Shown: one piece after another, positions 22,758 to 53,277 of the stretch
Layout of the letters: each line of letters begins with the position of its first letter
How positions within the stretch are numbered: position 1 is the stretch's first letter
DNA from: a virus
Strand: one strand, 5' to 3'
IMG/VR virus record: IMGVR_UViG_3300037261_000179
Location: 1-57,088 of that record
DNA: 57,088 bases
The notes under the pieces: model-generated
Told to the model about the DNA's origin: nothing
What the model saw: only the letters and a program-made list of their open reading frames with translations
Database searches by the model: none
Program-made: the position numbers and the translations under genes

Positions 22758-22787
22758 AACACTTGGCGGTAGAACAGCGTTACGGGC

Positions 22788-22816: not shown

Positions 22817-22823
22817 TTCGTTC

Positions 22824-31340: not shown

Positions 31341-32075
31341 TCAGGTCTGGGTATTCGCGTTAATCACATACTGGGGCAGCAGCGGGTGTGCGCTGTCGAG
31401 CATATGAAGGTACGTATCCAAGGAGTGAAACGCCGCGAGCTCGTCATCCGCTTCCTTGGTGGAGTCCACCCATAAGGTCGGACCAATGTGCTCATAGCAA
31501 AACAGCGGGTGGATGTCGAAAGGCACCTGCGGAACGAAGTCCGGTACATTGACAACCCGGACGAGCTGCAGTCCGCCGCTGAGCGCCCCTGCTACGAAAT
31601 CCGCATCCCCGACCCGGGGTCCCGCAAACGTGGCCAGAGCGCAGTTGGGCGTATCCACTGCCGCCATTGTAGCCAGGGCGGCACCAAGGCTGTGGCCAGT
31701 CACGATTACCGGCCGGGTTAGCGAGTATAGAAACACCCGCAGCGGCAAATTGCCGGCCTGCAGCGTCTGGTAGAGGTCAAGGAATCCACTGTGCACCCTC
31801 CCGGCTCCGAAAGGGCAGTCCACCGGGAGAGCTTCCGCATCCTTGACCCACTCCCAAAAGCCCTCCGTTCCCCGGATCGCACAAACCCAAGCGGAAAGCT
31901 CAGTATCAAAATAAACGACCCCGTACGGCTTCCGGCCGTCAGGGTCTGTCCCCCAAACAAGCGTGACCTGATTCGACGGCACAGCTACTGCCTCCGGAGA
32001 GGTATGAAATCCCGGCTGGTAGCACGCATTCACTGCGTTTCCCAGCCGGACCAGCTGTGCCGTGGAAAAAGTCAC
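31341..32075 (-). CDS. Class 3 lipase (alpha/beta hydrolase)
   Basis: 244 aa from GTG 32075, which overlaps the stop of the lipoprotein gene; an upstream in-frame ATG at 32111 lies inside that gene. Lipase_3 pattern: IRGTEGFWEWVKD near 68-79, nucleophile Ser129 in GHSLG, FAGPRVGD at 150-157, Asp179 in NVPDFVPQVP, His217 in AFHSLDTYL. The catalytic triad is complete. No signal peptide, so it would need a holin-type lesion or another route to reach lipid. Between a lipoprotein and an i-spanin-like gene, it may attack host membrane phospholipid during lysis. Phage class 3 lipases are uncommon. Confidence 0.8.
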   Translation of the reverse strand: MTFSTAQLVRLGNAVNACYQPGFHTSPEAVAVPSNQVTLVWGTDPDGRKPYGVVYFDTELSAWVCAIRGTEGFWEWVKDAEALPVDCPFGAGRVHSGFLDLYQTLQAGNLPLRVFLYSLTRPVIVTGHSLGAALATMAAVDTPNCALATFAGPRVGDADFVAGALSGGLQLVRVVNVPDFVPQVPFDIHPLFCYEHIGPTLWVDSTKEADDELAAFHSLDTYLHMLDSAHPLLPQYVINANTQT

Positions 32076-32539
32076 TTGGCAGGGGCAAGAACGGATTGCT
32101 GGCCGGACCAAAAATCAATCCCATGCTGGATACCCAGCGCAAAGTCGGTCAGGGCTGCTCCGACTATCGCCGTATTGGCGTTGGGCAGCGCACCCGTCAC
32201 CCCGGCATTGGCCTGAATGGCTGCGGAGATTAAAGAGCCGACTTGGTTGTACGCAGCGGCGTTCTTTGGGTCGGCCATAGCCGCGGCCTGCAGAGGCTGC
32301 AGTTCGGCGTTGAGCACGCCCATCTGGAAAGGGGTGATCTTTCCAGTAGCCAGCGTAGGCAAAGCGGCGGCGAGGTCCTGGAGACCTTTGAGGGTCGCCG
32401 GATTGTCACTGAGTTTCTTGGTGGCAAAAGCATTCCCCGCAAGGTAGTTTGCCGTGGCGATGTTTTGGGAGGGCGTGCCGCATCCGGCAACAAAAGCGAG
32501 CCCGAGGGCCGCGACGAGTAGAACGAGCATGTTTTTCAT
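32072..32539 (-). CDS. Lipoprotein, possible o-spanin or surface protein
   Basis: 155 aa. Signal peptide MKNMLVLLVAALGLAF with lipobox FVAGC (Cys20), so the mature protein is probably lipid-anchored. The mature part is Ala-rich and helical (LAAALPTLATGKITPFQMGV), unlike typical Pro-rich short o-spanins. Next to the lipase (GTGA overlap) and one gene from the i-spanin-like protein. An o-spanin or superinfection-exclusion role is inference. Confidence 0.6.
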   Translation of the reverse strand: MKNMLVLLVAALGLAFVAGCGTPSQNIATANYLAGNAFATKKLSDNPATLKGLQDLAAALPTLATGKITPFQMGVLNAELQPLQAAAMADPKNAAAYNQVGSLISAAIQANAGVTGALPNANTAIVGAALTDFALGIQHGIDFWSGQQSVLAPAK

Positions 32540-32949: not shown

Positions 32950-34497
32950 TTATAGATTGTTCCTGGGCATGCTGGAAACTCCGCCGCCTCCACCCCCGCC
33001 GGTATTTTGGTATGCACCTGCCCCGTAGGGAACCGTCCAAGTAGCATCGGCCAAATCTGTCGTGAAGTAGGCCGAATTATTCACACCAGCCGCAATAACT
33101 GGCGATCCGGAATTTGGTTGATACGTCCCGCTTAAGTTCGGATTACTGACATTGAAATTTGCATCAAAGGCCGCTCCAAGCGCCTGCCAGCCGGCAATGT
33201 TGTAGAACACGCCGGCGGAGGTCGAACTCCATGCAAATTGACTTCCACCGCTCAGCCCGTAGCCAAAATTATTCGTTCCGTTGTAGACGACGGACGCATT
33301 GTACTGAACGATAACTTGGGTCGTTAGCCCGCTTGAAACGTTGTTGTTGACGTAATAGGTGTCACCTCCGCTTATGTCGATCATCGCCCCCGAGCCAACG
33401 CCGACCGCCGTATTATTGTAGACGCGAAATACCCCACCAATCGACGGGTAAGAATTCAAATACATGCAGCCGTTATTCGGTGCACCGCTGGAATCGACCA
33501 AGAAAAGATTGTCGTAAATCAACGCATCCTTGACCTGATACTGGATGAAGAGGCCAGTCGTGGCGTTCGCTCCGAAGCCCGGACCAATGACGTTGTGATC
33601 GTAAGTCACATTCTGCGCGTAGCCGGTGGACGGCAAATAACAGAAGGTGAAAAAGCCATCATGGTGCGAGCTGTCAATCGAGTCGTCCCAATTTTTCCAA
33701 TCATGGAAATAGCAGTGGTGGACGTGCATCCCTGAGAGAGTGGACGTGTTGTAGTGATTCCCCGCCCATCCGCAAATGTTGGTATTGTACGCCGTGCAAT
33801 AACTGTACTCCAAGTTCGTCGTGGTATTGTAGTCGATGTCGAAGCCATTGCCGCAATCTGAGAAAACGCAGTTCGTCACCAGGTCATTCCCATAGGAAGA
33901 GAGACCGCCATAATAAAGCAGGTGCACCGCGCTCGCGAGCGTGATCCCCGCCGGCGGATCATTCTGCGCCCGGACGTAAAGGTTTTTAACCACTAGATTC
34001 TTGATTATGATGTTTGAGCTACCAGCCATCCATATTCCGACAGAGTCCGATTGATGGGCCAGGCCGGTCCCGTTGGCCGTGTTTTGAATGAACCCGTTTG
34101 ACGTACCTGTCGCGCCATACCCGCCGATCATTCCCGTCGCCCCGCCGTCGATGGTGATATAGGACAGGTCCGCAAAGCTGATTGCTCCATAAGGACTCGG
34201 CCAGAGCGGGCTAGTGAAATTCGCCCCGGAGTCAAAAAGGATCGTAACCGGATTGCCCGAAGTCCCGCCGGCTTGTGGGGAAAAATTTGATGTGATCGTC
34301 CCTACGACATGGATCGTGTCCCCAGGGCTAACTTTTCCAGCGCCCGCGCCCCAGTTCGATGGGTTGTTTGCTTCGGTGACGCTCCATGGATTCCCGATTG
34401 TGCCATTGTGCGAACCGCTGCCAGACTGGGTGAAGTACAGGTCTTCGGCTTGTAATGTAACAAGCAGCGCGAAAAAACTAATTAAATATCTCAGCAT
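32950..34497 (-). CDS. Signal-peptide-bearing beta-helix protein (tailspike-like)
   Basis: 515 aa. Begins MLRYLISFFALLVTLQA, a signal peptide with likely cleavage after LQA. The body is a run of short strands with N/G/S turns typical of right-handed parallel beta-helices (SNIIIKNLVVKNLYV, NVTYDHNVIGPGFG, GVFRVYNNTAVGVGSG), as in pectate-lyase-like tailspikes and surface polysaccharide hydrolases. A poly-Gly stretch (about 500-507) precedes the short C-terminus. Last of six fibre-like genes; five have signal peptides. Could be a secreted polysaccharide-active enzyme or an exported spike. Confidence 0.6.
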   Translation of the reverse strand: MLRYLISFFALLVTLQAEDLYFTQSGSGSHNGTIGNPWSVTEANNPSNWGAGAGKVSPGDTIHVVGTITSNFSPQAGGTSGNPVTILFDSGANFTSPLWPSPYGAISFADLSYITIDGGATGMIGGYGATGTSNGFIQNTANGTGLAHQSDSVGIWMAGSSNIIIKNLVVKNLYVRAQNDPPAGITLASAVHLLYYGGLSSYGNDLVTNCVFSDCGNGFDIDYNTTTNLEYSYCTAYNTNICGWAGNHYNTSTLSGMHVHHCYFHDWKNWDDSIDSSHHDGFFTFCYLPSTGYAQNVTYDHNVIGPGFGANATTGLFIQYQVKDALIYDNLFLVDSSGAPNNGCMYLNSYPSIGGVFRVYNNTAVGVGSGAMIDISGGDTYYVNNNVSSGLTTQVIVQYNASVVYNGTNNFGYGLSGGSQFAWSSTSAGVFYNIAGWQALGAAFDANFNVSNPNLSGTYQPNSGSPVIAAGVNNSAYFTTDLADATWTVPYGAGAYQNTGGGGGGGVSSMPRNNL

Positions 34498-34498
34498 T

Positions 34499-35089
34499 TT
34501 AGTGAAATTTGAAGTTTACAGGACCGTAAGCGTGGTTGGCCCCACCCGTAGTGCCGGTGCTGCCACCGCCGGCGGCCCCGCCTGAATCGTAGCAGCCGTT
34601 ATCTACTGAGATAACTGCATTGGCCGTGACGCTCGTATCAGAATCGTAGAAGTGATCCACCCCCGTTGCCTCTACCGACATACAGCGATAGATCGTTGAG
34701 GCACTAACTGTGATTGGAGTGGCCAGAGTAACATAAACATAACCATCGGCATCCGCTGCATTACTCATGTTAATCGTGGCCGATCCATTCGTCACCGGCG
34801 CTCCAGCAGAGCCCGTATAAATTGCAACAAAATGCGAAGCTGAATCACCTGCTGCCTTATATCTGCCAACGGCTGTAATTACCTTGGACGCTCCTCCAAC
34901 CGTGAATTGAAATCCTGTGGCGAAGCCGCCGCCATCAGCCCTAAGTGTGCCGGGCGTCTGTCCGGTAATAACATGGGGATCGCCCCCACTGCCCGCCAAC
35001 ACCGTCTTGGAAGGGAAGCGCGCCGACTTGTAGGGCACCTGAGCGAAGATGCCGGTACAGAGGAAAATAAAAATGATTAGATTTTTCAT
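34499..35089 (-). CDS. Signal-peptide-bearing small fibre-like protein
   Basis: 196 aa from the Met at 35089 (MKNLIIFIFLCTGIFA, then QVPYKSARF), a signal peptide with cleavage likely after IFA. The mature part is beta-rich (FQFTVGGASKVITAVGRYKA, YVYVTLATPITVSASTIYRC) like a carbohydrate-binding or fibre tip jelly-roll, and ends in a Gly/Thr-rich tail and VNFKFH. It overlaps the upstream small gene (TAAAATG). Not recognised by family. Confidence 0.55.
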   Translation of the reverse strand: MKNLIIFIFLCTGIFAQVPYKSARFPSKTVLAGSGGDPHVITGQTPGTLRADGGGFATGFQFTVGGASKVITAVGRYKAAGDSASHFVAIYTGSAGAPVTNGSATINMSNAADADGYVYVTLATPITVSASTIYRCMSVEATGVDHFYDSDTSVTANAVISVDNGCYDSGGAAGGGSTGTTGGANHAYGPVNFKFH

Positions 35090-35090
35090 T

Positions 35091-35330
35091 TTATGCTCCC
35101 GCAGAATCCGCCCATGTACCAGAATACCCCGTACCCATCTTAGCGATCCAATGGGCACCATCGCTCTCCATCGTTAGGTAATCACCAACTGCGCTTGTTG
35201 TATCTTGCAGGTAGTGATTGGCAGTCAGAGCGGTTGCGCCGTTGTAGGGCAGTTCAGCGTAGCCGGGGACTAGGTTGCCAGTAATCATTTTAAAGAGTGC
35301 GTCGGCGAGTGCTTGTTGGCCGGGGGTCAT
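35091..35330 (-). CDS. Small fibre-associated protein (79 aa)
   Basis: MTPGQQALADALFKMITGNL, then YAELPYNGATALTANHYLQD and ESDGAHWIAKMGTGYSGTWA. The only member of the six-gene fibre cassette without a signal peptide. The aromatic/Gly-rich C-terminus resembles fibre tips or chaperone-like tags. Function unknown. Confidence 0.45.
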   Translation of the reverse strand: MTPGQQALADALFKMITGNLVPGYAELPYNGATALTANHYLQDTTSAVGDYLTMESDGAHWIAKMGTGYSGTWADSAGA

Positions 35331-35400
35331 GGGAGCGCGGCGGCGAAGATAGGGGCAAGGAATGTTTCATGAGCTGGAGAGGAATAGGAGCGGGCGCATG
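35331..35400. other. Short intergenic gap
   Basis: 70 bp between two fibre-like genes. I see no hairpin, promoter or convincing reading frame. Confidence 0.4.
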
Positions 35401-37260
35401 TCAGTTAATCTTGATTGCTGAAATGCTCGCCGCTGAAACCGTTACTGATCCGGCGGAAGGAGTCGCAGTGACGGTGCCTTGTATACCAATAGTATCAGTT
35501 GTCTTGAGGGTATTGTATAAAGCTGTGAGTGTGACCGTCGGCCCGTTTGTCGCCAGAGTGGTCATTACCGGAATCTGGTCGCCGAAAATACTGCCGGACA
35601 AGTCGGCAGCCGTGTTATTCGTTCGGCGCAGTTTGTAATTCACGGAGGATGCCGTGGCATAGGTTGCGCCCACATAGCTCGTCTGAAGTGTGGCGGTGAT
35701 CAAGTATGTGCCAACTTCAGTCAGTGTTACGCTTGGACTGGTAGTGCCAAAAGTGACCGTGCCATAAGACCCCGTCAGGGTGTATGCCGTGCCCCCGGCA
35801 ACTTTGGTGTATGACGTTCCCGTTGCTATAGTTGATCCTGCCGCCATTGGTCCGGCCAGCAGCAAATTGGGACAACCTTTAAGACTGTAGATATTATTCC
35901 CCCCTGATGCCGAATCGTCAAACGCCGTATTGACGCAGTTTAAGAAAAACACCCCATTGCCGTTGCCGTATATTAGCGGGTACCAACCATTCTGTCCGGT
36001 ATTTGGATCGCTAAAATTGCAATTAAGAAAATAGAAATACTGGACGTTGGTATTAGTGAGGTCGCCAAAAGATATGGCGCCGGTAGCGGTCTTTACCGCC
36101 CAACAATTATTCAATACCACAACACCGCCGTTTGTTTTGGAGCTCAGGTCGCCAGCTGCACCAATTCCACAATTATTAATGGCAATAAAGTTTCCCACAT
36201 TGGAGGAACCACAGCTTAATTGACCAATGTTATTAATATCCTGCAATAAAATCGTCGGCATTTTGCCGGAGGACGTTGTCCCGATTTGTACGGCGGCATA
36301 GGCAAAGTTTATCAGGGATATGGCGTTGGCCGAAGCATCGACTGATTTAAAATCAGTCTGAAAATCTAATGCGGAGTTGGCATCACCAATCACTGTGATA
36401 GAAACCGGTCCGGTCATTCCAGTACCGACGGTCTTTTCAACGAACCAAACCGCCGCACCGCGAATATTAATAACGTGCGTGGTAGTTGAAGTGTTAGCAA
36501 AATTGAGCCTAAGCTGATACTGATTTCCAAGGGTAGTAGGTCCATCGTTAGCACTACCGTAGGCTCCCGATCCCCAGCCACAGATATAGATAAATTCATT
36601 CCAGCCCGTATTGGGCAAATCCATTTGGAAATAGCTGCCTTCGTTTGTGCCCGGTGTATCCAGAATAAAAATTGATCCAGCCGCGATGGATGAGGCATTG
36701 ACCGCATTGTAAGCAGCCAGCGGTGTTTTGAAGGATAAAAACGGGTTGCCAAGCACGGCAGTAGAGTCGTTGCCGTATTGATTGGAAAGATAGGCCACTA
36801 TTGCATTGTTTGTGATCGGAAGTGCTGCCCCCTGCTGCACGCCGACGACGGTGTAGGGGACGCCGGTGCCGGTGGGGGTGGGAGTAAAGGCCGCAGTACC
36901 CAACGTTCCTCCCGCTCCTATGTTAAGCGTACTCGCGTCCGTACCAGCAAGGGTCAGCGTATTTGAAAATGTCAGCGTCTTCGCGGCTGCTCCTGTCAAA
37001 GTAAAGCTACCGGCCGTAAAGGTGTTTCCATTGTATGTCGTGCTTGCCAGATTTTTGGTTGTCTTGTTGAAAGTAAACGTGGAATCTGCGGCGAAAGCCC
37101 CGGTATCGTTGAACTGAACCTGCGTACTGGACCCGCCGGGCGTACCACTACCCCCGCCCCCTGCCGACACAGATCCGATCGAAGCTGCGCCACCAGGATT
37201 TGACACACCGTCTCCAAACGCCAGCAACGGCAGAAATAAAAGTAAGAATAGCTTTTTCAT
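35401..37260 (-). CDS. Signal-peptide-bearing tail fibre/spike with C1q-like end
   Basis: 619 aa. N-terminus MKKLFLLLFLPLLAFGDG is a strong signal peptide (cleavage likely after AFG). Then tail-fibre-like repeats (VQFNDTGAFAADSTFTFNKT, NGNTFTAGSFTLTGAAAKTL shared with the 1566-aa protein), a beta-helix region (about 170-460, NVQYFYFLNCNF, GVFFLNCVNTAF), and a C-terminal jelly-roll of C1q/TNF style at about 490-619 (EVGTYLITATLQ, NYKLRRTNNTA, DTIGIQGTV). Domain make-up is that of a receptor-binding fibre. No in-frame Met close after the signal peptide allows it to be skipped. Confidence 0.6.
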   Translation of the reverse strand: MKKLFLLLFLPLLAFGDGVSNPGGAASIGSVSAGGGGSGTPGGSSTQVQFNDTGAFAADSTFTFNKTTKNLASTTYNGNTFTAGSFTLTGAAAKTLTFSNTLTLAGTDASTLNIGAGGTLGTAAFTPTPTGTGVPYTVVGVQQGAALPITNNAIVAYLSNQYGNDSTAVLGNPFLSFKTPLAAYNAVNASSIAAGSIFILDTPGTNEGSYFQMDLPNTGWNEFIYICGWGSGAYGSANDGPTTLGNQYQLRLNFANTSTTTHVINIRGAAVWFVEKTVGTGMTGPVSITVIGDANSALDFQTDFKSVDASANAISLINFAYAAVQIGTTSSGKMPTILLQDINNIGQLSCGSSNVGNFIAINNCGIGAAGDLSSKTNGGVVVLNNCWAVKTATGAISFGDLTNTNVQYFYFLNCNFSDPNTGQNGWYPLIYGNGNGVFFLNCVNTAFDDSASGGNNIYSLKGCPNLLLAGPMAAGSTIATGTSYTKVAGGTAYTLTGSYGTVTFGTTSPSVTLTEVGTYLITATLQTSYVGATYATASSVNYKLRRTNNTAADLSGSIFGDQIPVMTTLATNGPTVTLTALYNTLKTTDTIGIQGTVTATPSAGSVTVSAASISAIKIN

Positions 37261-37646
37261 TTGGAAACGGAGTCGTCGGTCGTGATGTCGAGAGTGACGG
37301 AGCCCCCGGCGGAGATGGCCACGTATGGTTTGGAACTCGCCCCCACGCCGTTAGGGAAAGTTTTAACCCATGCCGTACCCGCTTTTAGCAGGTAGCCTGT
37401 CGTTGTGGTCGGATCGGTGCCGGTCGGAGTTGTGGAATTTGGAAAGGTACTCCCCCCGTCAAACGAAAGCCTCACATCCACCGAGCCCGTGTTCTGGACA
37501 GTCACCTGACGGCAATCCGGGCCAAAGGTGATAATAGGCGTCGCCGTTGAGAGCGTACCCGTCACCTGCTTGATGGTGGCGCTCGCGGAGAGCGTGAAGG
37601 CAAGGCACAAGGCCGCCGCAAGAAAGAATCGTAGTGTGTTTTTCAT
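37257..37646 (-). CDS. Signal-peptide-bearing small beta protein (129 aa)
   Basis: Start Met at 37646 (MKNTLRFFLAAALCLAFTLS, cleavage likely after ASA, classic A-x-A). Mature part is a small beta-sandwich (RQVTVQNTGSVDVRLSFDGG, GYLLKAGTAWVKTFPNGVGA, SAGGSVTLDI), resembling small phage fibre/tail-associated beta domains. Overlaps the start of the 619-aa gene. A periplasmic or surface role, or assembly with the neighbouring fibres, is inferred from context. Confidence 0.55.
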   Translation of the reverse strand: MKNTLRFFLAAALCLAFTLSASATIKQVTGTLSTATPIITFGPDCRQVTVQNTGSVDVRLSFDGGSTFPNSTTPTGTDPTTTTGYLLKAGTAWVKTFPNGVGASSKPYVAISAGGSVTLDITTDDSVSK

Positions 37647-37653
37647 GGTAAAA

Positions 37654-40600
37654 TTAGTTGTTGTTGAGCTTGATTGATGGCGTACCGTGGCCGCCATCCG
37701 CAATTGAAAGCCCGTCCATCGAAACGTTGTTAGTAACCTTGGTCGGAGCTGCAGTGTAATCCGTTATGATGTAATTGCCTCCGCTCGCTTGGCTGCTCAC
37801 CGTCCCAACAATCGCCGTGTTGGTCAGAGTCACCGCCGAATTGGGCACGAGCCGAACACTTTCGTTGTTCGATGCGGAAAGCAGGTTGATGCTGTTACCG
37901 ATCAGCTTAAGCCCATTCCATGCGGTAGGACTTGAAATGTCGGTTCCGGTGTCGATGCCGCGGCAGAACTGCGCCCGGCCCTGGCTGAGATGGCAGCCCT
38001 CAACTGTAAGGTTTTGCCAGTCGGCAATGACGAGGCAGGAACCGGACGCGATGTCGTCCACATCGGCCTTGATCGTGCAATCAGTTGAGTTCACGAACCA
38101 GATCCCGTGACCGCCGCCGACCGTGCTGGAATTGCGCACCTTGACGTTCAGCAATTTCACCCGCGTATTGCGCGTGCTGGAGTTTATCTCCCCACGGACA
38201 CCGGACTGTTTCACGGTGTCAATGTTCACGCCGTTGACGAGAACGTCAGTATCGCCCGCCAGCCAGATGCCTCGTCCCCAAGTAGAAGCTGGAGCGATAT
38301 TGCAGGCCGTGGTGTTAGCGATGCCGCTTGTCCCGGTGCCACCGCTGCCAAGATAGGTCACCGGTAGGGTCGTCACACTGCCCGAATGCGTCGCGCTCCC
38401 GCTCATGGTGAAGGTCTGATAGTTGGTCAGGCGCGTTGCAGACACGTTCACCACGACGATATTGCCCGAGACGAGACCGGAATAAACCGATGCCAGAGAA
38501 AAGCTGTTTGAATCAGTATCGTTTATATAAATGTTTGTGGCACTTGAGGGCGTAGCGTTGTTCAGGCGAAATGTTCCACTGGCCGGGCTGCTGGTCGTAG
38601 TCGTGCTGAAGGCGTAGGAAGGCAGATAATCGTTTGGGGAGCCACCCGCGCCGTTGGCCGTCGTCAGGCACTGCCCGTAATCCCGTGAACGGACAAGTCC
38701 GCCCTCCACGGTGATGTCAGTCGAAGTGTCGATCCCGTAACCGTCATCGTCCTGCCCCACCAGATGGCAGTTATAGACGGTGCCTCGAGTGCAACCGCTC
38801 AGGTGAATTCCATCGGCGTAACAAACGGAAGTACTGATATTGTTCAGACGCACATCAGTCGCATTGACTGCGAAAATGGCGAATTCCCCCGAATGTTTTA
38901 TTTCGACATCGTGCACGTAAGGAAAGGAGCCCTGTAACTGCAAGGCATGAGCTCCGGTCGTCCGCGCCGTGCATCCGCCATCGACCGTCAGATTGCAGAT
39001 TGTGATATGGTCGGTGGTCGTATCGGTCTTGATGGTCTGGCCTGGCGAGATGCCTTGCAAAATAGTTACACCAACTCCATCACCGCAGATCGTGGTATTA
39101 CTGTGCCCGGTGAACGTGACGAGGCCGGCGGTAGCTGTGTTGAACACATAGTTGCCGGCCGGGAAATAGAGAATTCCGTAGTTGGCAGGCAGCGCAGAAA
39201 CGGCAGCTTGGATCGCTGTGGTATCGTCTGAACCGTTGCCCAGCGCCCCATAGTCCTTCACGTTGATCGTCAGATTCAGATTTGCTTTCCCCGTGCGCTG
39301 ATGCGCGAGTGTGTCAAAGGCAAGAGTATCGAGGAATTTGACAGAGAAAATTGGATTCCCAGAACTCGAGGTAAGCGAGATTGTTTCCGTGGTCCCGCCA
39401 ATTCCAAAGATCATATTTGGAGCAGCGCCGAAAGCACGGAGCGAAAACGAGCTTTTAGCATAGCTTCCACTTGCCCCGGAAGCATCCGTAAAAGAAAGTG
39501 TCCCCGTGTCCAGCTGGCTGGAGGTAGAAGTCACACCGATATGAATAGCCCCATTGATTGTCTCAGTACCGATAAACGTTTGGGAAGCATCCGTCCGCGC
39601 AATTGTCGCCGCCGCATCTGGGAAGGTGAAAGCTCGCACCGCCGTCAAGCCCGTCGCGGAAAAGAAAGCCGAGTTTGTCCCTCCATTCGCTGGGGGCAGC
39701 ACCCCTCCAACGTCAGTCGTCAGATTAATCTTAGCCAAGGAAGCCGGAGACGAAATCGCAATAGTCCCGTCTGCCGCCGCCCCTGTGTGCAAAACCTGCA
39801 CGAGAAAAGAAGTAGTCGTAACCGGGGCTGTTGAAGTGAGCGCCCCCGACGTGCCTAGGTAGTACTGTGTGTTTGCCGCCAAACTCGAAATTACATTCTC
39901 AAACCCACTCATGGTCACCGTGAACGGGTTTCCTGTCCCCGTTACCACGCCGTCAACAACCGCCGTGCCAGACGCAGCATTGTCTGATAAAACCCAAGCC
40001 GACCCATTGTTGAACACGCACTGGCCAACGGTGAAACTGTTGGCCTGCGACACGGCGCGGGTTACCGACGTGCCCGTACCACCCCCGCCACCGTTCCCAA
40101 GAGCGCTCACCACCTGAAAGTTGGTTCCATCATAAGCGACGACCACAACTTGCCCTGCACGAATATCATTCGCCGCCAAATCCGTATTTACCCCACCGAC
40201 CGCCTTTTTGAGAGTCTTGGCCCCGAGAGCATTGATATTCAAAGTCGAAGCCGACGTGTTGGCGTTGGCCGCCACAAAAGTATAGAGAGGCGTGCCCGTG
40301 GTATAAGTGGTGATCGCAGGAGCCAGCGTCATCACGTAGGTATTCGTGGAGCCTGAATCCGCCACGTACGTTGCTTGGTAGGAATCATCCGAAAGCATCC
40401 AACGGCTGTTCACCAGCTTCAATCTCGCGCTGTGGTTTCCTGCAGGCCCTGGCGTGTAAACTCCGCCCGCAATTGCCACATCCGGGTCCCCCTCTCGAAA
40501 GACACTCGCCCCTGAAAATGTCACCGTGGACGTTGCGTTGCACCCTTGGAAATAAAGCATAAAACTATCGCCATTCACCGCAGACGGAAGGGAAACACCT

Positions 40601-42354
40601 GTCGTTGTCCCGTTCACGAACGTCAGGAAAGAAATTTCCTGCCCGACGGAAGCGGAATTTCCCACCCCCGTTGTCCCGGTAATCTGCGGAATCGTGAAGC
40701 CGTTGCTGAAAGTCTGATGCCCTGTGAAAGTCTGAGCGGCGTCCGTGCGTGCGAGAACTGAATTTGTCGTGGGAAAAGTATGACTCGTCCCATCCGTACC
40801 GCTCAACGTCAGAGAATTGGTAAAGTTCAGTGTCTTGGCCGCCGTACCTGTCAGCGTGTACGACCCGGCGGTAAAGGTATTTCCGTTGAGCGTCGGCACT
40901 GCCACCGCTCCGGCAAACGTGACCGCTTTGGTCGATCCCACCATATTGACCACGGCATTGTTTTTTCCGTCGTAAACGTTGAAGTCCCGGAACTGGGTCG
41001 TACCTCCGTTGTACCCGTCGAAATTGACGTTCACCGACCCGTTGGCGTTGGTGGTCGTCTCTGCGATCTGGTTGGTCTTCAGAACCAGATTGGCGGCAAA
41101 AGTATTCCCCGTGTTTGTCAGCTGTGTGACACTCGCCACTGCCGGGGTCGTCTGCCCCAAGGTTCCGTTGAAAACTCCGCTGTTGATTGTCTGCGAAGTG
41201 ATCGTAGCCGGAATGGAAAAAACATTTCCTATGAGCGCCAGATTTGTTCCCGCCGTATAGCTGGAAGCGGCGCCGAATTGCGCAAAGATAACCGGATCTG
41301 TCCCGAGAACCGTAGGCGCAGTCTGGATCGCCCAACTGGTGTTCTTGTTGACCGATCCCCCGCTCACGAAATACAAGTATCCCACCTTAAGTTGAGCCGC
41401 AGTGTTCGAATCCGAAGCCCTGGACCACGCGCCGGCAGCACTCACGTAGATACCGTTCTGAGAAGTAGTCGATTGGTTTATCACCGCCACGCGCGAAGCA
41501 CTGGTCGTGAAAGTGTCAATCGTCTGCTCCCCGGACAGCGTAATGTTCGCTGTCGTAGCCACGGCAACACCTGTGCGCTGTGTGATACCGGCAGAGACGG
41601 AAGAAAGGTCTGTAAGCCGCGCTGCATCGTATGGGTTCACCGGAGCCGGAAGTCCCGTGATTGTCACCGCATTCATGGTCCCGCCGGTCACTGCGATCGC
41701 TGACGAGCTTTGCGTGGCGAGGCTGTTGAATGTCCCCACTGCCGCACTGGTGAGCCCCGGCGCAGAAGTGACACCCGCGTTTAGAGCTGACCCTGAAAGA
41801 GTCCCGGCCGCCGCCGTCACTGTGATATTGGAAGTGCCGTCGAACGTCACACCGTTTATCGTCCGGCCGGTCTGCAGCGCCGTAGCGGTACTCGCATTCC
41901 CCGTAAGACTGCCGGTAACAATTCCAGTCATATTGCCAGTAAGGTTGCCCGTTACATTACCGGTCAACGGCCCAAAGAAAACACCCGTAAAATTGCCCGC
42001 CGTGTACGTCCCGTTGGCAATCCCAATCCCCGACATGTCCATAGATGCCGGAAACGACAAAGTTACGTTACCACCAACAGTCAAAGAATTTATCTGGTTG
42101 GGAGTACCGGAAACAGAAAAACCAGAATTGGAACTCAAGGGTACCCATTGTCCGTCCCCGCGGAGAAAAGTGAGCGACGACGGGCTGCCTCTTCCCAACA
42201 TTGCTCCCGGGAAAATGGCCGACCCTCTTACGACTGAAGCGTTCACCGTCATGGTCCCATCAATCGTGGGGTTGTGGATCTGAGCCCTCACTTTTCCAGG
42301 AGCCCCGCTAACCAAAACCAAAAATGCGAAAAGTAGTCGAAAAAATGATTTCAT
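37654..42354 (-). CDS. Giant tail fibre/tailspike with signal peptide and pectin-lyase fold
   Basis: 1566 aa, first gene of the fibre cassette. MKSFFRLLFAFLVLVSGAPG with cleavage likely after VRA is a signal peptide. Residues about 120-200 carry tail-fibre repeats (GNASTATALQTGRTINGVTF). The middle has fibre modules, including NGNTFTAGSYTLTGTAAKTL shared with the 619-aa protein. From about residue 1028, INVKDYGALGNGSDDTTAIQ then GILYFPAGNYVF is the start of a Pectate_lyase_3 beta-helix, which in tailspikes binds or cleaves surface polysaccharide. A TTTGAC...TGGAAAA element lies about 45 bp upstream. A virion fibre with a Sec signal is unexpected. Confidence 0.75.
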   Translation of the reverse strand: MKSFFRLLFAFLVLVSGAPGKVRAQIHNPTIDGTMTVNASVVRGSAIFPGAMLGRGSPSSLTFLRGDGQWVPLSSNSGFSVSGTPNQINSLTVGGNVTLSFPASMDMSGIGIANGTYTAGNFTGVFFGPLTGNVTGNLTGNMTGIVTGSLTGNASTATALQTGRTINGVTFDGTSNITVTAAAGTLSGSALNAGVTSAPGLTSAAVGTFNSLATQSSSAIAVTGGTMNAVTITGLPAPVNPYDAARLTDLSSVSAGITQRTGVAVATTANITLSGEQTIDTFTTSASRVAVINQSTTSQNGIYVSAAGAWSRASDSNTAAQLKVGYLYFVSGGSVNKNTSWAIQTAPTVLGTDPVIFAQFGAASSYTAGTNLALIGNVFSIPATITSQTINSGVFNGTLGQTTPAVASVTQLTNTGNTFAANLVLKTNQIAETTTNANGSVNVNFDGYNGGTTQFRDFNVYDGKNNAVVNMVGSTKAVTFAGAVAVPTLNGNTFTAGSYTLTGTAAKTLNFTNSLTLSGTDGTSHTFPTTNSVLARTDAAQTFTGHQTFSNGFTIPQITGTTGVGNSASVGQEISFLTFVNGTTTGVSLPSAVNGDSFMLYFQGCNATSTVTFSGASVFREGDPDVAIAGGVYTPGPAGNHSARLKLVNSRWMLSDDSYQATYVADSGSTNTYVMTLAPAITTYTTGTPLYTFVAANANTSASTLNINALGAKTLKKAVGGVNTDLAANDIRAGQVVVVAYDGTNFQVVSALGNGGGGGTGTSVTRAVSQANSFTVGQCVFNNGSAWVLSDNAASGTAVVDGVVTGTGNPFTVTMSGFENVISSLAANTQYYLGTSGALTSTAPVTTTSFLVQVLHTGAAADGTIAISSPASLAKINLTTDVGGVLPPANGGTNSAFFSATGLTAVRAFTFPDAAATIARTDASQTFIGTETINGAIHIGVTSTSSQLDTGTLSFTDASGASGSYAKSSFSLRAFGAAPNMIFGIGGTTETISLTSSSGNPIFSVKFLDTLAFDTLAHQRTGKANLNLTINVKDYGALGNGSDDTTAIQAAVSALPANYGILYFPAGNYVFNTATAGLVTFTGHSNTTICGDGVGVTILQGISPGQTIKTDTTTDHITICNLTVDGGCTARTTGAHALQLQGSFPYVHDVEIKHSGEFAIFAVNATDVRLNNISTSVCYADGIHLSGCTRGTVYNCHLVGQDDDGYGIDTSTDITVEGGLVRSRDYGQCLTTANGAGGSPNDYLPSYAFSTTTTSSPASGTFRLNNATPSSATNIYINDTDSNSFSLASVYSGLVSGNIVVVNVSATRLTNYQTFTMSGSATHSGSVTTLPVTYLGSGGTGTSGIANTTACNIAPASTWGRGIWLAGDTDVLVNGVNIDTVKQSGVRGEINSSTRNTRVKLLNVKVRNSSTVGGGHGIWFVNSTDCTIKADVDDIASGSCLVIADWQNLTVEGCHLSQGRAQFCRGIDTGTDISSPTAWNGLKLIGNSINLLSASNNESVRLVPNSAVTLTNTAIVGTVSSQASGGNYIITDYTAAPTKVTNNVSMDGLSIADGGHGTPSIKLNNN

Positions 42355-42420: not shown

Positions 42421-42936
42421 TCATGGGAAAATTATGAACCCGACTTGTCGCGTTCCGGCAGAGGGCAACGCACTCCCATCCACGTTGTATATCATAAATT
42501 GTGCCACCGTTTTAAGGGTCAGAGGGTTCGCCCAGTCGTACGCTGCCACCATGATGCTTGGCAGGCTATCTTGCGGCACACCAAGAGCGGCGGAAGGTTT
42601 AGACCCGAGCTTCATTCCTGAAATGTCCACTCCATAAAGGAAGGATGTGAGCCCGCTGGAGTTGAGGACTGCCATGTCCAATAGCAAAGAGTAGGCTTTT
42701 GGGGGAGGAGTGACAAAATTCGGAAACTGTACCACAGGGGTATTAGTCGCCCTGCCCCCACGCGTCACTGCCGCGGCCGGTGCTGCAGCTTGTGCTGTGC
42801 TGTAGACAGACCGAAGCGCCTGGGCCACTTCCCTGGACCACTTCTTTACAACACTCTCCACCTTGGCCGCGTCAGAACCTATTGGTACGCCCGCCGGGTC
42901 TGGATAATCATTCACCACCAATGGATTCAAGGACAT
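42421..42936 (-). CDS. Hypothetical tail protein (171 aa)
   Basis: MSLNPLVVNDYPDPAGVPIG then helix SVVKKWSREVAQALRSVY, Ala-rich segment, and a beta-rich half (TSFLYGVDISGMKLG, TRQVGFIIFP). No family recognised. Coupled to the 805-aa tail protein and last gene of the capsid-tail unit. Probably a virion component by position. Confidence 0.5.
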   Translation of the reverse strand: MSLNPLVVNDYPDPAGVPIGSDAAKVESVVKKWSREVAQALRSVYSTAQAAAPAAAVTRGGRATNTPVVQFPNFVTPPPKAYSLLLDMAVLNSSGLTSFLYGVDISGMKLGSKPSAALGVPQDSLPSIMVAAYDWANPLTLKTVAQFMIYNVDGSALPSAGTRQVGFIIFP

Positions 42937-45353
42937 CAGTACGTCCCCCCAAGTCGCCCCATGAGGTGCATCCGAGAAACTCTCCAGCCACAGCCTACTT
43001 GGCTACTGGAAACCCTGATGCGCATATACCGACCAGTCCGCCTGATATTCACTTTTGCAACCCGTTGCTCCCCACTTTCAATGGGTAAAACAACTGGGTT
43101 TGACCATACCAAATCATCCCCCAAATTCATCCGTGACCCAAGTTGAACTTCTATCACGTAAGGGTTCACCTGAACTGCCATCGCTACAGCTTCCAGCGCA
43201 ACAGTGAGCGTGTCGGAATACTTGACCGACAAAGGATCACCGTCGGAAAAATCCCCCGTCTCGTACAAGCAAGCCATCGCATTTCCATCCCGATCAAAAC
43301 CTTGGTTGAGAAGCGCGAGTGTCGGACGATCAACGGAATTGTTGTGCTGAAACCCGGCCACCGTAAAGTTCTGAGCGCCTGAGCTCAAAATATCCTCCCA
43401 AAGCGCGTCCACCGGCCAAGACACAGGAGCTGACCACGTTCCTCCTGCGAAAGCGAATGTCGGGTTTGGGCTGAGGTTCAGCCTGCCAAACGCCGTAATC
43501 CCGTGGAGAACCAGATTCGCATGGGCGCTCGGATCGTAGTCGTCCGTCGTGCATGAATCCTCCACGTAGTTGTAAATGAAAACTCGATAAGGTGCATCGT
43601 TTGCAGCCGTACCAGCCACCGGGTACGCAAACCACACTTCGAAATCCTTTTCGTTGTGGTATCCTACAATTTCATCGACCCGGGTCAGATCGAGCTCTGC
43701 GAATACCTCCACCGCATGCTGGCGCCCAACTGGCTGAAGTTGCGATCCTCCGATATAGCGGTAAATCTCCCGGTTTCCGAAAAGGAAGATTTGCCCGATC
43801 CCCACTTTCACAAAGGAGTACTTCCCGATCAAGCCTTCGTCGATTACCTCTGTTCGTAGAAAAAATACCCCCTGGTCAAGCCCAACGTACTGAATGGACT
43901 GGATCGACCGGTTTTTGAAAATGTACGCATAGTCCCCCAACGTTTCCACCCACCAAAGAGGACCGTTGATAAACGCCCCAGCGTTCACCAATTCCCCGGC
44001 CCCGTTGGCATCAACGGACAGGATTGTGGTACCGATCGGTACTACCGTGGTGGCTGGCGCCGCCCCCGTCAGCTGGCTCACCGTCCCCTTGAAAGCGAAA
44101 AGTTCCTGCAGCGTGCCACCCATCGCGCTTATGTCGATCGACCCCGACGCGTTGTGCAGGCTCACAAAAGGCTGGGGAACGATAAACTCCCCTGCAAAGT
44201 GGGTTGATAGCGAGGTACCACTATTCCCCGTGTATGCCAAATTCACTATCCCGTCGGCGTAGTCTATTCCTGTAACGATATAAACGTCATTGCCCGCAAA
44301 AAGGTTAGGCCCGATGGAAATGTGTGCCCCCAACCCAAAAGGAAAAAGCCCCTCCACTTGGATAGTCACGTTCCCGCCAGGTGCTGGAATGGTAAAATCC
44401 GCTGCCAACGTACAGGCATTTGTCCCCGGATCGAAAGCGTCAGAATTGACTGTAAGAATGATGCTCGGGTTGTTGCTGAAATAAACCATTCCTCCCGCCT
44501 TGTAGGGAATGAAATCACGGATGAAAACTTCCCGGTCCCCGCCGGCCGGAACTGTTTGCGGAAAGCCTGTAACGTTCCCCACCTGCCCGGTACTTGGAAG
44601 AACATCGGTCACGCTCAGATACGTAACGTACCCGTTCAGATCAAAACGCATGAACTGCCCGATGGCGAGCAGCGCCGCCGTGGAGGAATCCACGTATACC
44701 CACTCAGTCTTAACGCCTACCGCCGGGACCGAAAAAGTTTGCAATGTTTTGAGCAGCGCCGATGTGGCCGTCGCCCCGACCGGTATCCATTCAAACGCAT
44801 CCCCCGTTGCACACCATTTGAGGGTGCTACCTCCCCAGATCAAAACATAATCCCGAAATGTCGTCACGCCCTGCCATGCCAGCAAGGGATCAAGCCCAGG
44901 CAAAAGCTTAGCCGCGGCGCTCACTCCGTCCCAGTAAACCATGGGTGATCGGGGCTGGGCAAAAATCACCTTGTCGAAAAAACTTGTAGCAACGATCCTG
45001 CTCCGGGCATTGGCCAAATTCGAAAGATAGTCATAAAGCTGAGTAAGTACCACATGCTTCGGGTCAGACGGAGAAAAAAGGCTGTAGAGCTTTCGCTGCG
45101 TGCCGATGATCCCAACATTTTGGGACGGTTGGTAAAACTGCGTCTGGTAGATCAAATTCGCCGGGGACTCGAGATTGGGCGACTGGACCAAAGTGACAAA
45201 CCCCATGGCGTTCTTTGCCACCCCTTTCTCAAAACGAACATTCGACGCCACCGTGGCGGCGCGCGGATCAATCTCGTCTGGACTGATACGGGTAACCTGC
45301 CCCAGAGTCGGAGCCACAATCGCAACTTCGAATCCGTCTGAAGCACGGCGCAT
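42936..45353 (-). CDS. Tail/stabilisation protein (podovirus nozzle, gp12-like)
   Basis: 805 aa, beta-rich. The N-terminus (GQVTRISPDEIDPRAATVAS, NVRFEKGVAKNAMGFVTL) matches large podoviral tail proteins that wire the list of tail contacts (often annotated phage stabilisation protein or tail tubular protein B). Propeller-like repeats of GxxYYFS/IxSIQYVG type follow, ending in RTGRYMRIRVSS. Its place after the adaptor and collar genes fits the tail nozzle. Confidence 0.65.
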   Translation of the reverse strand: MRRASDGFEVAIVAPTLGQVTRISPDEIDPRAATVASNVRFEKGVAKNAMGFVTLVQSPNLESPANLIYQTQFYQPSQNVGIIGTQRKLYSLFSPSDPKHVVLTQLYDYLSNLANARSRIVATSFFDKVIFAQPRSPMVYWDGVSAAAKLLPGLDPLLAWQGVTTFRDYVLIWGGSTLKWCATGDAFEWIPVGATATSALLKTLQTFSVPAVGVKTEWVYVDSSTAALLAIGQFMRFDLNGYVTYLSVTDVLPSTGQVGNVTGFPQTVPAGGDREVFIRDFIPYKAGGMVYFSNNPSIILTVNSDAFDPGTNACTLAADFTIPAPGGNVTIQVEGLFPFGLGAHISIGPNLFAGNDVYIVTGIDYADGIVNLAYTGNSGTSLSTHFAGEFIVPQPFVSLHNASGSIDISAMGGTLQELFAFKGTVSQLTGAAPATTVVPIGTTILSVDANGAGELVNAGAFINGPLWWVETLGDYAYIFKNRSIQSIQYVGLDQGVFFLRTEVIDEGLIGKYSFVKVGIGQIFLFGNREIYRYIGGSQLQPVGRQHAVEVFAELDLTRVDEIVGYHNEKDFEVWFAYPVAGTAANDAPYRVFIYNYVEDSCTTDDYDPSAHANLVLHGITAFGRLNLSPNPTFAFAGGTWSAPVSWPVDALWEDILSSGAQNFTVAGFQHNNSVDRPTLALLNQGFDRDGNAMACLYETGDFSDGDPLSVKYSDTLTVALEAVAMAVQVNPYVIEVQLGSRMNLGDDLVWSNPVVLPIESGEQRVAKVNIRRTGRYMRIRVSSSQVGCGWRVSRMHLMGRLGGTY

Positions 45354-45362: not shown

Positions 45363-46019
45363 TCAGGTCTTGACGATTTTGTTCATGCCCAGGGAAGGCT
45401 GCAGCAAGGACATTGCGGTCCCGGTCGCCCCGTACGTCGTGCTCACTGGCGCCCCCGTTCCAGATGGTACCGTGTTACCCCCGTGCGACAAAGTGGGAAG
45501 CTCCGACGTAGCGATCACATGCGTCTCCGCACCAGTGGAGCGCCCCAAGGTCCACGCAGTCGCCCCACTAGCCGAACCCGTACCCAAACCAACTGAAACC
45601 CTGCCGCGGAAATCAGGCAGCCCGAAAGTGGTCGTTCCGTTTCCGCCGTAGGTCGTGCCGAACAACGCCGCCAAGGCCGGGTAGGTAGCAATCAAAGGCG
45701 TGCTCCCGTCACAGATAAGCCAGCCAGTCGGTGCCGCAGATGCTCCGTAATCAACAATCATTCCTGGAATCAGTGTTGCTGGTGTTGCCCATGTGGGCGG
45801 AGTACTTACCCCGGCGGAAGTATAAACGGTTCCCGCTGCCCCGTATGGTGTCGTGACTGGATTCGGAATCGCCGTGGACTTCAGAGTCCCGTCCGTCAGA
45901 TTGAAACTGACTGTGAGAAAATCAATGATCTGCTGGACAAAAGCCCGAAACGTCGCCGGCCACGAAGCGATCGTCGCGTTGTCGAGCGGCTGGGTAGGGT
46001 CGAAGGGGGTGAGTGACAT
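45363..46019 (-). CDS. Phage tail collar domain protein
   Basis: 218 aa. The collar domain is clear at about residues 84-150: MIVDYGASAAPTGWLICDGS, YPALAALFG, TTTFGLPDFRGRVSVGLG. This fold caps tail fibres and is also found in microcystin-dependent proteins. N-terminus FDPTQPLD echoes the FDPxxP motifs of the large ejection protein. C-terminus keeps the H-x-H-type fibre tip (ETHVIATSELPTLSHGG). No signal peptide, in contrast to the fibre cassette. Start context CTAACC-ATG. Confidence 0.8.
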   Translation of the reverse strand: MSLTPFDPTQPLDNATIASWPATFRAFVQQIIDFLTVSFNLTDGTLKSTAIPNPVTTPYGAAGTVYTSAGVSTPPTWATPATLIPGMIVDYGASAAPTGWLICDGSTPLIATYPALAALFGTTYGGNGTTTFGLPDFRGRVSVGLGTGSASGATAWTLGRSTGAETHVIATSELPTLSHGGNTVPSGTGAPVSTTYGATGTAMSLLQPSLGMNKIVKT

Positions 46020-46021
46020 GG

Positions 46022-46723
46022 TTAGAATCCTCCAAAGCGCATCGTGCGTCCACGGGTTGCCCGCGACGCGTCATCCGCAGATGCTTGTGCAAAGTAGCCG
46101 GCGAATCCACCAGGCTTGCCGTTGATCATGGCCGTTGCCTCGTTCTTGGCCGCAATGGAATCCTCATCCGCTCCAAGCGAGTACATCAAAAATTTCGTAA
46201 ACTCCAAAACCAGCATGGGATACTTTGCCATCAGGTCATTTTCATCCGTTGGCAGCACAACCGGGGGAAGAAAACTGTAGGTGTCCAGATTGAAATTGGT
46301 GTCCGGCGGAAGTGTACCCATCGTCAAGGGCCCGGGGAAATTCACACTCCAGATTCCGGCCGGACTTTGTTCCAAAAATGCCGTGCGCTCGGAAACGTTG
46401 GTGCCTATCTGCTGCAAGCGGTTCACTTCTTGGCGGGTGAAAATTCTCCAGATGCTATTCCCAAAAAAGGCTGTCGAGCTGGCGGAAAGAGAATTGGCCC
46501 CGCTCTGCAGTTCCTTGAACGTCGCGGGCAGCGCGTACGCGTAGGGCCCAGGGCCGGTCACCGGCAGAATAAACTGCAGCGGCACCTTCATGCAGTTCCA
46601 CGAGCGCCGCTGCTGGATCTGGTTCAACGCCTCGTTGATCAAAATAGGCAGCGTCCCAAGCCACGGCTCCTGCGCCGAAGAAAGCCCCACCGCGGCCAAG
46701 GCTGATATGGTCTGGAGGTTCAT
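46022..46723 (-). CDS. Head-tail adaptor protein (paralog 1)
   Basis: 233 aa. Helical N-terminus (LPILINEALNQIQQRRSW) then LPATFKELQSG, RQEVNRLQQIG and a beta-rich middle. The LPA-FKELQ-G and RxEVxxL elements are shared with the next upstream gene, so the two are paralogs. The pattern is that of gp4/gp11-like podoviral adaptor or tail tubular A proteins. ATGA overlap with the paralog. Likely forms a dodecameric ring under the portal. Confidence 0.6.
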   Translation of the reverse strand: MNLQTISALAAVGLSSAQEPWLGTLPILINEALNQIQQRRSWNCMKVPLQFILPVTGPGPYAYALPATFKELQSGANSLSASSTAFFGNSIWRIFTRQEVNRLQQIGTNVSERTAFLEQSPAGIWSVNFPGPLTMGTLPPDTNFNLDTYSFLPPVVLPTDENDLMAKYPMLVLEFTKFLMYSLGADEDSIAAKNEATAMINGKPGGFAGYFAQASADDASRATRGRTMRFGGF

Positions 46724-51009: not shown

Positions 51010-53277
51010 TCATGTATTCACTGGCCGGGCCTGCACAGGCTCTGCGGTCTGTTGCCTCGGGCCGGAAAGGATGGACGCAAGCCCCGGCTTGGGACCGGGC
51101 GACTGCCGGTGCCCGTTGTTCGCTGGGTGGTGTGACGGCCTCTGCCCTACCCCAAGGGGCGCCACGCCCGGAGCCACAGGATGGCCGCCGGGATGAGGCT
51201 CCGCCATACCGGGAGGGAGTGGGCCGCCTGTTCCCGTTTCCTGCACCCCAATGTCCGCCATGATTTGAAAACGCTCTGCCGCTGTGAGCTCGGCAATGTC
51301 CGCCTTGAGTGACAGCGAAGGCTTCAGCGGTGGCACCGGTTTTGGCTGTCTGGCCGCCTCCGCCTGGGCCTGCGCCATCGCCGCCTGCACTTTTTGAATG
51401 TCCTGATCCCGCCAGCGGTAGCGCTCGGGCTGCATACCCGAGACCCGGAAAAGATCGAGGAACACGCGCCGCGGGTCGATATTGCCTTGGCCGGGCTTGA
51501 AAATGTCGGGGAACATTTGCATGGACTCGACCGTCCGGGTGAGCGCCGCCACCCGCTTGGCATCTGGCCCCGGCAGCGCGCCATCGTGTGCCCGGTAGGT
51601 GAATTCCCCCTGGATCACGTCGTTGTTGATCGTGTACTTTCCATCTGCAAACATGTCCATCACATCCTCGTCCTCCCCGACAATCCGACGGATCAACTCC
51701 GCATCAAAGAACTGCTGGAAGTTGGATGTGAGACGTTTGGTCTGTGGAACAATCCCACCGACGGAGAGAAGCCGCGCTATTGCCGACAGGCGCCCGGCCG
51801 CCATCTGCTGGGTGTTGGCAAACTCCGTGGCCGTCGTGCTGCCACCAGAAGTCTGGCCCTGCAAATTTTGGTTCGCCCCCGAAGTCGCCTCGGCAAAAGA
51901 AATGAAGCCCTTCATCTCCTCCAAAAATCCGGCCGTCATGTCCACCATCGGGACCTGCTTGATCACGTCGTTGATCGGCATTGTCTCGCCTTCCGGCAGA
52001 ATCGTGATGAACTTTCCTTCCTTCTCCGGGTCCTCGAAATCTGCCACGTCGATGAGCCGCGACTTGGCGATGAACACATTGCCGATCGTGCGCGTGACCG
52101 CTTCTTGGTGGCGGTTTTTCAGGTAGTCCACGTAGTCCTGAATGTTTTTCAAAACCATGACCCATGAAGGCGACCACTGATAAAAAGGTGACGGCCTGGC
52201 CTCCCCGACCGAATAGGGAAATTGGTCGTGCTCATAGGTGGACTCGTTGAAAGCCAGCGGCTCCTTTTCATTCCCGATGATCAGCTGGAAAACTTCCGGA
52301 TCGGTCCGGTCATCAATTTCGTAGTCCTTCGGCACAAGCCGCACCCACAGCTCCACAAAGTCGATCATACCCGGGTCCTTTGCGTCGGCGCGCGAATCGA
52401 CCGGCGTTGCCACCTTGCCCCTTTCGTAGGCCGTCCGGGAAATAAGATCCTGCCCGGTCGGGCCCGTCGCCGTGCTGGAGGTCGGATACGCGATGGACTT
52501 GGAAGGTTTTTTCTTGAGCTCATTCACCGCGCGGGCCGACAGATACATCGGATCGTCCGCCGGCAGTTCACTCCGTCCCTTGATGTACGTCCAGGGCTTG
52601 ACCATGCGGTGCCCGGCGAATCGGCCTTCCTGCATGCGGAACAGCGGCATCAGCGGGTCGATATAAAAATCGTACGGGGAAACAATTTCCACCCGGTTGT
52701 ATCCCCCGACGCGGGTCTTGACTTTCTTCTGTTCAGTCACCGGCTGGCCGGATTCGTCAAGCACCGGCTGGCCTTCATCGTCCGTCTTGGGCACGTCCTG
52801 CCAGACGCCCTTCATGATCGGAGCGTAGCAGTCGTAGAAAACCCCGCGGTTGTAGACCAGGGAATTCTCCACCCACATCCAGCCCAGCTGGTACATGCCG
52901 GAAACCTGCTGCTCGGAATTCCATCTCAGAAGCTCGTTCATCAGCCGCGCCGCCCCCTCGTCATCCGGGCCGCCGGCATCGACCTTGTGCGGGTTGTCAT
53001 CGCCGAACAGCGACTGCGTGATAAACGCCGTCATGGTGTGGACATGCGTCGCCGTGATCGGCAAAATGAAACGGCGGGGCTTTCCTTTGGCGAGACTCAC
53101 GTAGTCCTGTTTCGTGAGCGTCGCATAGCACATGAGGATGTCATGCGCGGCATCCATGTCCGCCGTATAATAGTCCAGCGTCGCCCGGGCGTGCGTGATG
53201 TAGTCCTGCCCCAGCTTGAGCACCGTCTTGCGAAAGGTCTCGTCGGAATCCAGCCGCGATGTCAGGGAAGTGGGCAT
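51010..53277 (-). CDS. Portal protein (podovirus type)
   Basis: 755 aa, usual size for podoviral portals. N-terminal helical region (KLGQDYITHARATLDYYTAD), a wing with beta-rich stem (VGGYNRVEIVSPYDFYIDPL), and the clip and stem helices (WVMVLKNIQDYVDYLKNRHQ, ATSGANQNLQGQTSGGSTTA, QMAAGRLSAIARLLSVGGIV), typical of P22/T7-type portals. The C-terminal 120 residues are Pro/Ala/Gly-rich, perhaps a flexible barrel extension. It forms the dodecameric DNA entry port, directly downstream of terminase and small acidic genes. Confidence 0.8.
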   Translation of the reverse strand: MPTSLTSRLDSDETFRKTVLKLGQDYITHARATLDYYTADMDAAHDILMCYATLTKQDYVSLAKGKPRRFILPITATHVHTMTAFITQSLFGDDNPHKVDAGGPDDEGAARLMNELLRWNSEQQVSGMYQLGWMWVENSLVYNRGVFYDCYAPIMKGVWQDVPKTDDEGQPVLDESGQPVTEQKKVKTRVGGYNRVEIVSPYDFYIDPLMPLFRMQEGRFAGHRMVKPWTYIKGRSELPADDPMYLSARAVNELKKKPSKSIAYPTSSTATGPTGQDLISRTAYERGKVATPVDSRADAKDPGMIDFVELWVRLVPKDYEIDDRTDPEVFQLIIGNEKEPLAFNESTYEHDQFPYSVGEARPSPFYQWSPSWVMVLKNIQDYVDYLKNRHQEAVTRTIGNVFIAKSRLIDVADFEDPEKEGKFITILPEGETMPINDVIKQVPMVDMTAGFLEEMKGFISFAEATSGANQNLQGQTSGGSTTATEFANTQQMAAGRLSAIARLLSVGGIVPQTKRLTSNFQQFFDAELIRRIVGEDEDVMDMFADGKYTINNDVIQGEFTYRAHDGALPGPDAKRVAALTRTVESMQMFPDIFKPGQGNIDPRRVFLDLFRVSGMQPERYRWRDQDIQKVQAAMAQAQAEAARQPKPVPPLKPSLSLKADIAELTAAERFQIMADIGVQETGTGGPLPPGMAEPHPGGHPVAPGVAPLGVGQRPSHHPANNGHRQSPGPKPGLASILSGPRQQTAEPVQARPVNT

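Follow-up and report, generated by a model that had tools for sequence, protein, structure and literature searches.

Virion fibres normally carry no export tag, and in tailed phages their assembly is assumed to be cytoplasmic. Here, a cassette of genes that encode fibre- or tailspike-like proteins with predicted signal peptides (SPs) was analysed in the IMG/VR virus record IMGVR_UViG_3300037261_000179, which belongs to a group of tailed phages known only from uncultured material. The window was the entire record (57,088 bases), called G000 beside its relatives G002-G015, and the five SP-bearing cassette genes were named f1566, f129, f619, f196 and f515 after the lengths of their proteins in amino acids (aa). 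Phage-encoded proteins exported by the Sec pathway are already known; a full-text literature search, with preprints and most subscription journals outside its scope, found no paper that describes a fibre cassette with SPs.

Among the closest described systems, Porphyromonas gingivalis phages of the proposed family Nixviridae have five genes with Q-rule SPs, whose function is unknown and which are thought to use host secretion (PMC10367356). Like the cassette, these are phage genes with Sec/signal peptidase I (SPase I) signals, but they are not described as a fibre or tailspike cassette near tail and lysis genes (PMC10367356); the likeness considered here is that of the description. The SP-bearing lysis proteins, including the fOg44 endolysin Lys44, signal-arrest-release (SAR) endolysins, the T4 antiholin RI (also named in the title of PMC8385771) and spanins, are likewise exported by Sec during infection (PMC6116005), and the cassette adjoins presumed lysis genes. 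However, the cassette proteins are large and fibre- or tailspike-like, whereas the lysis proteins are murein hydrolases or lysis regulators (PMC6116005); family searches of the SP proteins found no murein hydrolase, holin or spanin domain. Pectate-lyase-like beta-helix tailspikes, including G003_939 and G015_927 of the same clade, resemble f1566 in their beta-helix region and internal modules, but virion tailspikes lack an SP and bind the tail through their N-terminus, whereas the N-terminus of f1566 consists of an SP and a clade-specific segment. WceF of Pantoea stewartii likewise combines a tailspike-like beta-helix with an export signal, but it is a bacterial, chromosomally encoded protein exported by the twin-arginine (Tat) pathway, and serves as an exopolysaccharide enzyme of the producing cell (PMC7949094).

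The frames of the five genes were open at the positions given in an earlier note on this DNA, and its claim that five of the six cassette proteins carry Sec/SPase I SPs was confirmed with a purpose-written, rule-based heuristic. The rules were a positive n-region, an uncharged core of at least 8 residues with a mean Kyte-Doolittle (KD) value of at least 1.9, and an AXA-type cleavage site. All five proteins were called, each with a basic n-region, a hydrophobic core and small residues at -3/-1, and the sixth, of 79 aa, was not. The predicted SPs and cuts (marked by a slash) were MKSFFRLLFAFLVLVSGAPGKVRA/QIHN for f1566, MKNTLRFFLAAALCLAFTLSASA/TIKQ for f129, MKKLFLLLFLPLLAFG/DGVS for f619, MKNLIIFIFLCTGIFA/QVPY for f196 and MLRYLISFFALLVTLQA/EDLY for f515. 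The heuristic recovered 12 of 13 well-known Escherichia coli SPs (BtuB was missed), and its false-call rate was 0.53% among 12,000 shuffled window N-termini; from this rate we estimate that five SPs in six proteins would arise by chance with a probability of roughly 1e-11. From 264 open reading frames (ORFs) in five records, 17 SP calls were obtained; cassette fibres accounted for 10 and lipoproteins for 2, and the remaining 5 fell on other small proteins, mostly of membrane type. The heuristic is strict and missed the 971-aa protein of G004 (Glu inside the core), the SP of which was assigned by alignment with f1566 and by inspection.

The other structural genes of the window lacked SPs, as had been noted before, and the only other window gene called encodes the lipoprotein at 32072-32539. 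Misplaced starts that mask cytoplasmic proteins were rejected as an explanation, since no better start was found and the alternatives were GTG or TTG codons. The earlier observation that f619 has no internal Met able to skip the SP was correct (an early ATG is absent, and GTG codons lie at 19 and 31), and f515 has no alternative start within its first 90 codons. Neither a lipobox Cys at +1 nor a twin-Arg (RR) motif was present in any of the 12 SP fibres of the clade, and the mature proteins showed no transmembrane segment (maximum 19-residue KD 1.56) and no recognisable C-terminal sorting signal.

Relatives were gathered from IMG/VR by tail and capsid searches, and SP-bearing fibre-like genes adjoined the same tail and lysis genes in G003, G004 and G015. 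G003 (58.7 kb; capsid 75% identical) encodes four SP-bearing proteins of 544, 285, 495 and 680 aa; all four genes are also found in G010 and G013, and G011, which is cut by its contig end, keeps the first one. G004 (60.5 kb; complete genome with a 127-bp terminal repeat; capsid 91% identical) encodes SP-bearing proteins of 971 and 766 aa; reading through the terminal repeat also gives a homologue of f129 that has an SP. In G015 (8.5 kb), a long adaptor-fused fibre without an SP is directly followed by a fibre with an SP, which runs off the end of the contig. The SP genes adjoin the tail gene, which in G003 means the separated piece for its N-terminus. The genes after the cassette in G000, G003 and G004 encode a lipoprotein, a membrane protein or a lipase. 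No SP-bearing fibre was found in G012 or in the 18-kb part of G014 that was read. An assembly chimera was rejected because the relatives have like cassettes in the same neighbourhood, one of them in the complete genome with the terminal repeat. The SP-bearing fibre cassette is a real, clade-wide feature.

The proteins f1566, G004_971 and the SP-bearing fibre of G015 were 44-51% identical in alignments that span the SP and ~45 residues after it. Within this family, the hydrophobic stretch varied in sequence and length yet stayed an SP, the mature start was conserved (consensus NPTI.GT.T.N.S ... GS...P..LG.G.PSS.T.L.G.G.W), and the bodies diverged. Such a pattern would be expected if export is under selection and the segment after the SP is conserved for docking or folding. 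These N-terminal homologues emerged only by direct comparison; a search of the relatives' records with f1566 gave no match, and scans of viral contigs with f1566, f129, f196 and f515 as queries gave no relatives.

Strong SPs that are kept in three further lineages despite divergence, and that are absent from the adaptor-fused fibres of the clade and from the fibres of other phages, strongly suggest that the cassette proteins are built for export. The earlier note had proposed spikes that are displayed on the cell surface or secreted, or an unusual fibre assembly linked to export, and the export part of this interpretation was supported; the cassette proteins more probably form a soluble pool in the periplasm, set free by lysis, than stay stably displayed on the surface, because no transmembrane segment, lipobox, Tat motif or C-terminal sorting signal was recognised. 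Judged from sequence, there is about an even chance that the cassette encodes soluble, Sec-exported, SPase I-trimmed fibre- or tailspike-like proteins that are held in the periplasm, released by lysis and serve chiefly as free spikes that bind or depolymerise glycans. Late in infection, the host Sec system would export the cassette proteins, SPase I would trim them, and the mature proteins, having neither membrane anchor nor lipobox nor sorting signal, would fold and gather in the periplasm. Breakage of the envelope would free the spikes together with the progeny; they would mostly bind or depolymerise glycans and loosen material of the host's envelope or capsule near the burst, and some might also dock on virions after lysis. 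This proposal is based on the strong SPs, their conservation in the clade, the tight packing of the genes and their position between tail and lysis genes. The genes form two blocks (f1566-f129-f619, and the 79-aa gene with f196 and f515), with gaps of -4 to 7 bases inside the blocks and 70 between them. A dedicated cassette promoter, suggested in the earlier note, was not supported: 11 sites were found versus 10.0 +/- 2.9 in shuffled sequences, a chance level, and none lay upstream of 42354.

Several points weigh against free periplasmic spikes. No path across the outer membrane is encoded, which makes action before lysis doubtful, and the docking-like conserved mature N-terminus fits attachment to virions at least as well as free action. 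The proteins f515, f129 and f619 have no family assignment. Gln at +1 was counted in 7 of the 12 SP fibres with three sites (G004_971, G004_766 and G015) placed by eye, but in only 4 of 10 with the cut sites of the heuristic itself, and in 2 of 5 for the window alone.

The description of all cassette bodies as fibre- or tailspike-like held for f1566, for which it is solid, and is plausible for the remaining proteins. In f1566, PF13229 (Beta_helix) scored 26.1 bits against a cutoff of 25.9, another module matched a solved capsid decoration protein (PDB 9nx3), and residues 1030-1188 resembled the G015 fibre without an SP. A short fibre motif of the QVQFND type in f619 recurs in other viral contigs, with an SP in none of the 10 proteins read there. 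The match of f196 to DUF4082 was below the cutoff. Family searches with f515 and f129 gave no match at a meaningful score; both proteins are rich in Gly, Ser, Thr, Asn and Ala, as fibres are. Single-sequence AlphaFold models were of low confidence, with a predicted local distance difference test (pLDDT) score of 37 for f196 and 30 for f515.

Fibres without SPs were compared within and beyond the clade. In G002, G003 and G015, proteins of 914-939 aa start with an adaptor-type segment and lack an SP; those of G003 and G015 contain a pectate-lyase-like region, and several short modules are common to the SP fibres and the adaptor-fused fibres. Six distant isolates with related capsids (21-27% identity) had no SP on their annotated tail fibres and large fibre-like proteins; one of them, CRP-810, had one composition-flagged ORF of 263 aa with an SP near a lysozyme gene. 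No SPs were found in those annotated fibre and tail proteins that were checked from Bacteroides phage B40-8, Cellulophaga phage phi38:1, crAss001 (the latter two partly covered) and Riemerella phage RAP44, apart from one immunoglobulin (Ig) lipoprotein of RAP44, and a general habit of Bacteroidota phages was rejected on these checked genes. Across the other phages, some 30 fibre or tail proteins lacked SPs, that lipoprotein being the sole exception. This absence, together with the recurrence of a basic n-region, a core of 10-13 residues and an AXA-type site in twelve proteins of four lineages, argues against hydrophobic N-termini that are relics, or that serve assembly or attachment of cytoplasmic fibres, and makes such a role very improbable.

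The adaptor-type protein is free-standing in the window (171 aa) and in G004 (257 aa); in both phages, an SP protein (f1566 and G004_971) contains a beta-helix or pectate-lyase-like region. No tail-attachment domain is found at the start of f1566; the adaptor-type segment sits on the separate 171-aa protein. Close to the tail genes of these two phages, every large fibre-like protein picked out by its composition bears an SP, so an SP protein may have to provide the long fibre. The SP fibres could then be receptor-binding or depolymerase fibres that mature in the periplasm and join the tail adaptor during or after lysis. A conserved N-terminus with a variable body is also typical of virion fibres, the f1566 module is known from capsid decoration and tail fibres, and P22 heads accept tailspikes in vitro. 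However, G003 and G015 have a long adaptor-fused fibre without an SP in addition to their SP proteins, so a replacement is not required there; the small adaptor and collar proteins might be enough for binding, and no precedent was found in the literature searched. Loading of virions after lysis is the main rival to free spikes and appears rather unlikely. We also regard as unlikely the consequence that part of the virion fibre set is built outside the cytoplasm, by Sec export, periplasmic maturation and docking on the tail adaptor, so that the infectious particle would depend on host secretion.

Two further explanations are less likely. Exported spikes might bind from within to surface glycans or to the receptor that the phage itself uses, shielding the cell against superinfection or preventing progeny from adhering to debris; exported fibre modules would bind host glycans, and a phage lipoprotein adjoins the cassette. 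Adjacency to lysis genes, however, suggests late expression, and no SP protein was found with a receptor-binding C-terminus common to the virion fibre of the same phage, which leaves this role with a small probability. The genes might otherwise be morons, that is, secreted fibre-like adhesins captured from bacteria to affect the host surface. SPs occurred in 8 of 11 chromosomal bacterial proteins with the same short fibre module (L063-L066, L068, L070, L071 and L073; Flavobacterium, Elusimicrobia, Paludibacter and Bdellovibrio), so the union of SP and fibre modules is a bacterial surface-protein theme, and the G+C content of the cassette is lower than that of its flanks (53.9% versus about 58%). 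But the bacterial likeness is confined to one short module, the position and the SP-fibre family are kept across the phage clade, and other modules match phage fibres of the clade; capture is improbable, and export of soluble phage spikes is favoured over both.

A G+C content of 57% is high for many Bacteroidota. The Gln residues at +1 are reminiscent of the SPase I substrates of this phylum, most of which have Gln at +1 (mean 71%), and Acidobacteriota and Verrucomicrobiota are absent from the text of that study (PMC5837995). This is a hint that may point to a type of host, and is no assignment. A capsid search of GTDB genomes found no prophage.

The features of the locus are collected in the Table. 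Next to the cassette, the class-3 lipase is possibly a lysis enzyme acting on envelope lipids. Further along, a 181-aa protein (30430-30975, minus strand) weakly matched the citrate synthase C-terminal domain (PF00285, 18.8 bits; cutoff 27), and a protein at 55655-56209 of G004 begins like it. At 21316-22757 (plus strand), two adjacent, similar proteins of ~230 aa start with MKQLPFAVIYGG and MKLLPFAVIYGG, and a similar protein is encoded at 45688-46434 of G004. In at least three lineages, the homologue of the tail gene at 42936-45353 is broken in two, and other genes separate the N-terminal part from a C-terminal part of ~700-790 aa (G003, 52801-53379 and 35131-37494; G007, 17208-21216; G012, 19638-28704). 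In G003, these intervening genes are the SP cassette, lysis genes and sugar-transfer genes, and the split may mark an insertion hot spot.

Table. Predicted features of the SP-bearing cassette and its neighbours in the window
Feature	Position	Strand	Basis
Tail/structural protein of the virion, 805 aa; upstream anchor of the locus in relatives	42936..45353	-	phrog_3287; relatives
Free-standing adaptor-type protein, 171 aa	42421..42936	-	First ~48 aa match N-termini of relatives' adaptor-fused fibres
f1566, SP-bearing, fibre/tailspike-like, 1566 aa	37654..42354	-	SP call; PF13229; PHROG fibre-type modules; G004/G015 homologues of SP and N-terminus
f1566 predicted SP, 24 aa, cut VRA/Q	42283..42354	-	SP call
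f1566 conserved mature N-terminal segment, about aa 25-70	42145..42282	-	Common to G004_971 and G015
f1566 module, aa 247-385, occurring in phage capsid-decoration and tail-fibre proteins	41200..41616	-	PDB 9nx3, E 9.6e-8; tblastn to phages
f1566 right-handed beta-helix region, aa 1116-1222	38689..39009	-	PF13229 Beta_helix
f1566 module, aa 1250-1325	38380..38607	-	Common to non-SP adaptor-fused fibres of G002/G003/G015
f129, small SP-bearing protein (SP 37578-37646)	37257..37646	-	SP call; SP-bearing G004 homologue
f619, SP-bearing, plausibly fibre-like (SP 37213-37260)	35401..37260	-	SP call; QVQFND-type fibre motif
79-aa protein without SP	35091..35330	-	Resembles C-terminus of SP-bearing G003_495, 46% identity
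f196, SP-bearing, weak DUF4082 match (SP 35042-35089)	34499..35089	-	SP call
f515, SP-bearing, fibre-like composition (SP 34447-34497)	32950..34497	-	SP call; composition
Lipoprotein, VAGC lipobox, downstream of cassette	32072..32539	-	SP caller; positional counterpart in G004
Class-3 lipase, presumed lysis region	31341..32111	-	PF01764, 76.4 bits; relative in G003

The clade offers a natural comparison, with related fibre modules that follow an SP in some proteins and are fused to an adaptor without an SP in others. If the cassette proteins are exported as proposed, these phages would either deliver free spikes to the envelope and the surroundings or assemble part of the virion after export, and either outcome would alter how receptor-binding proteins are recognised in genomes.

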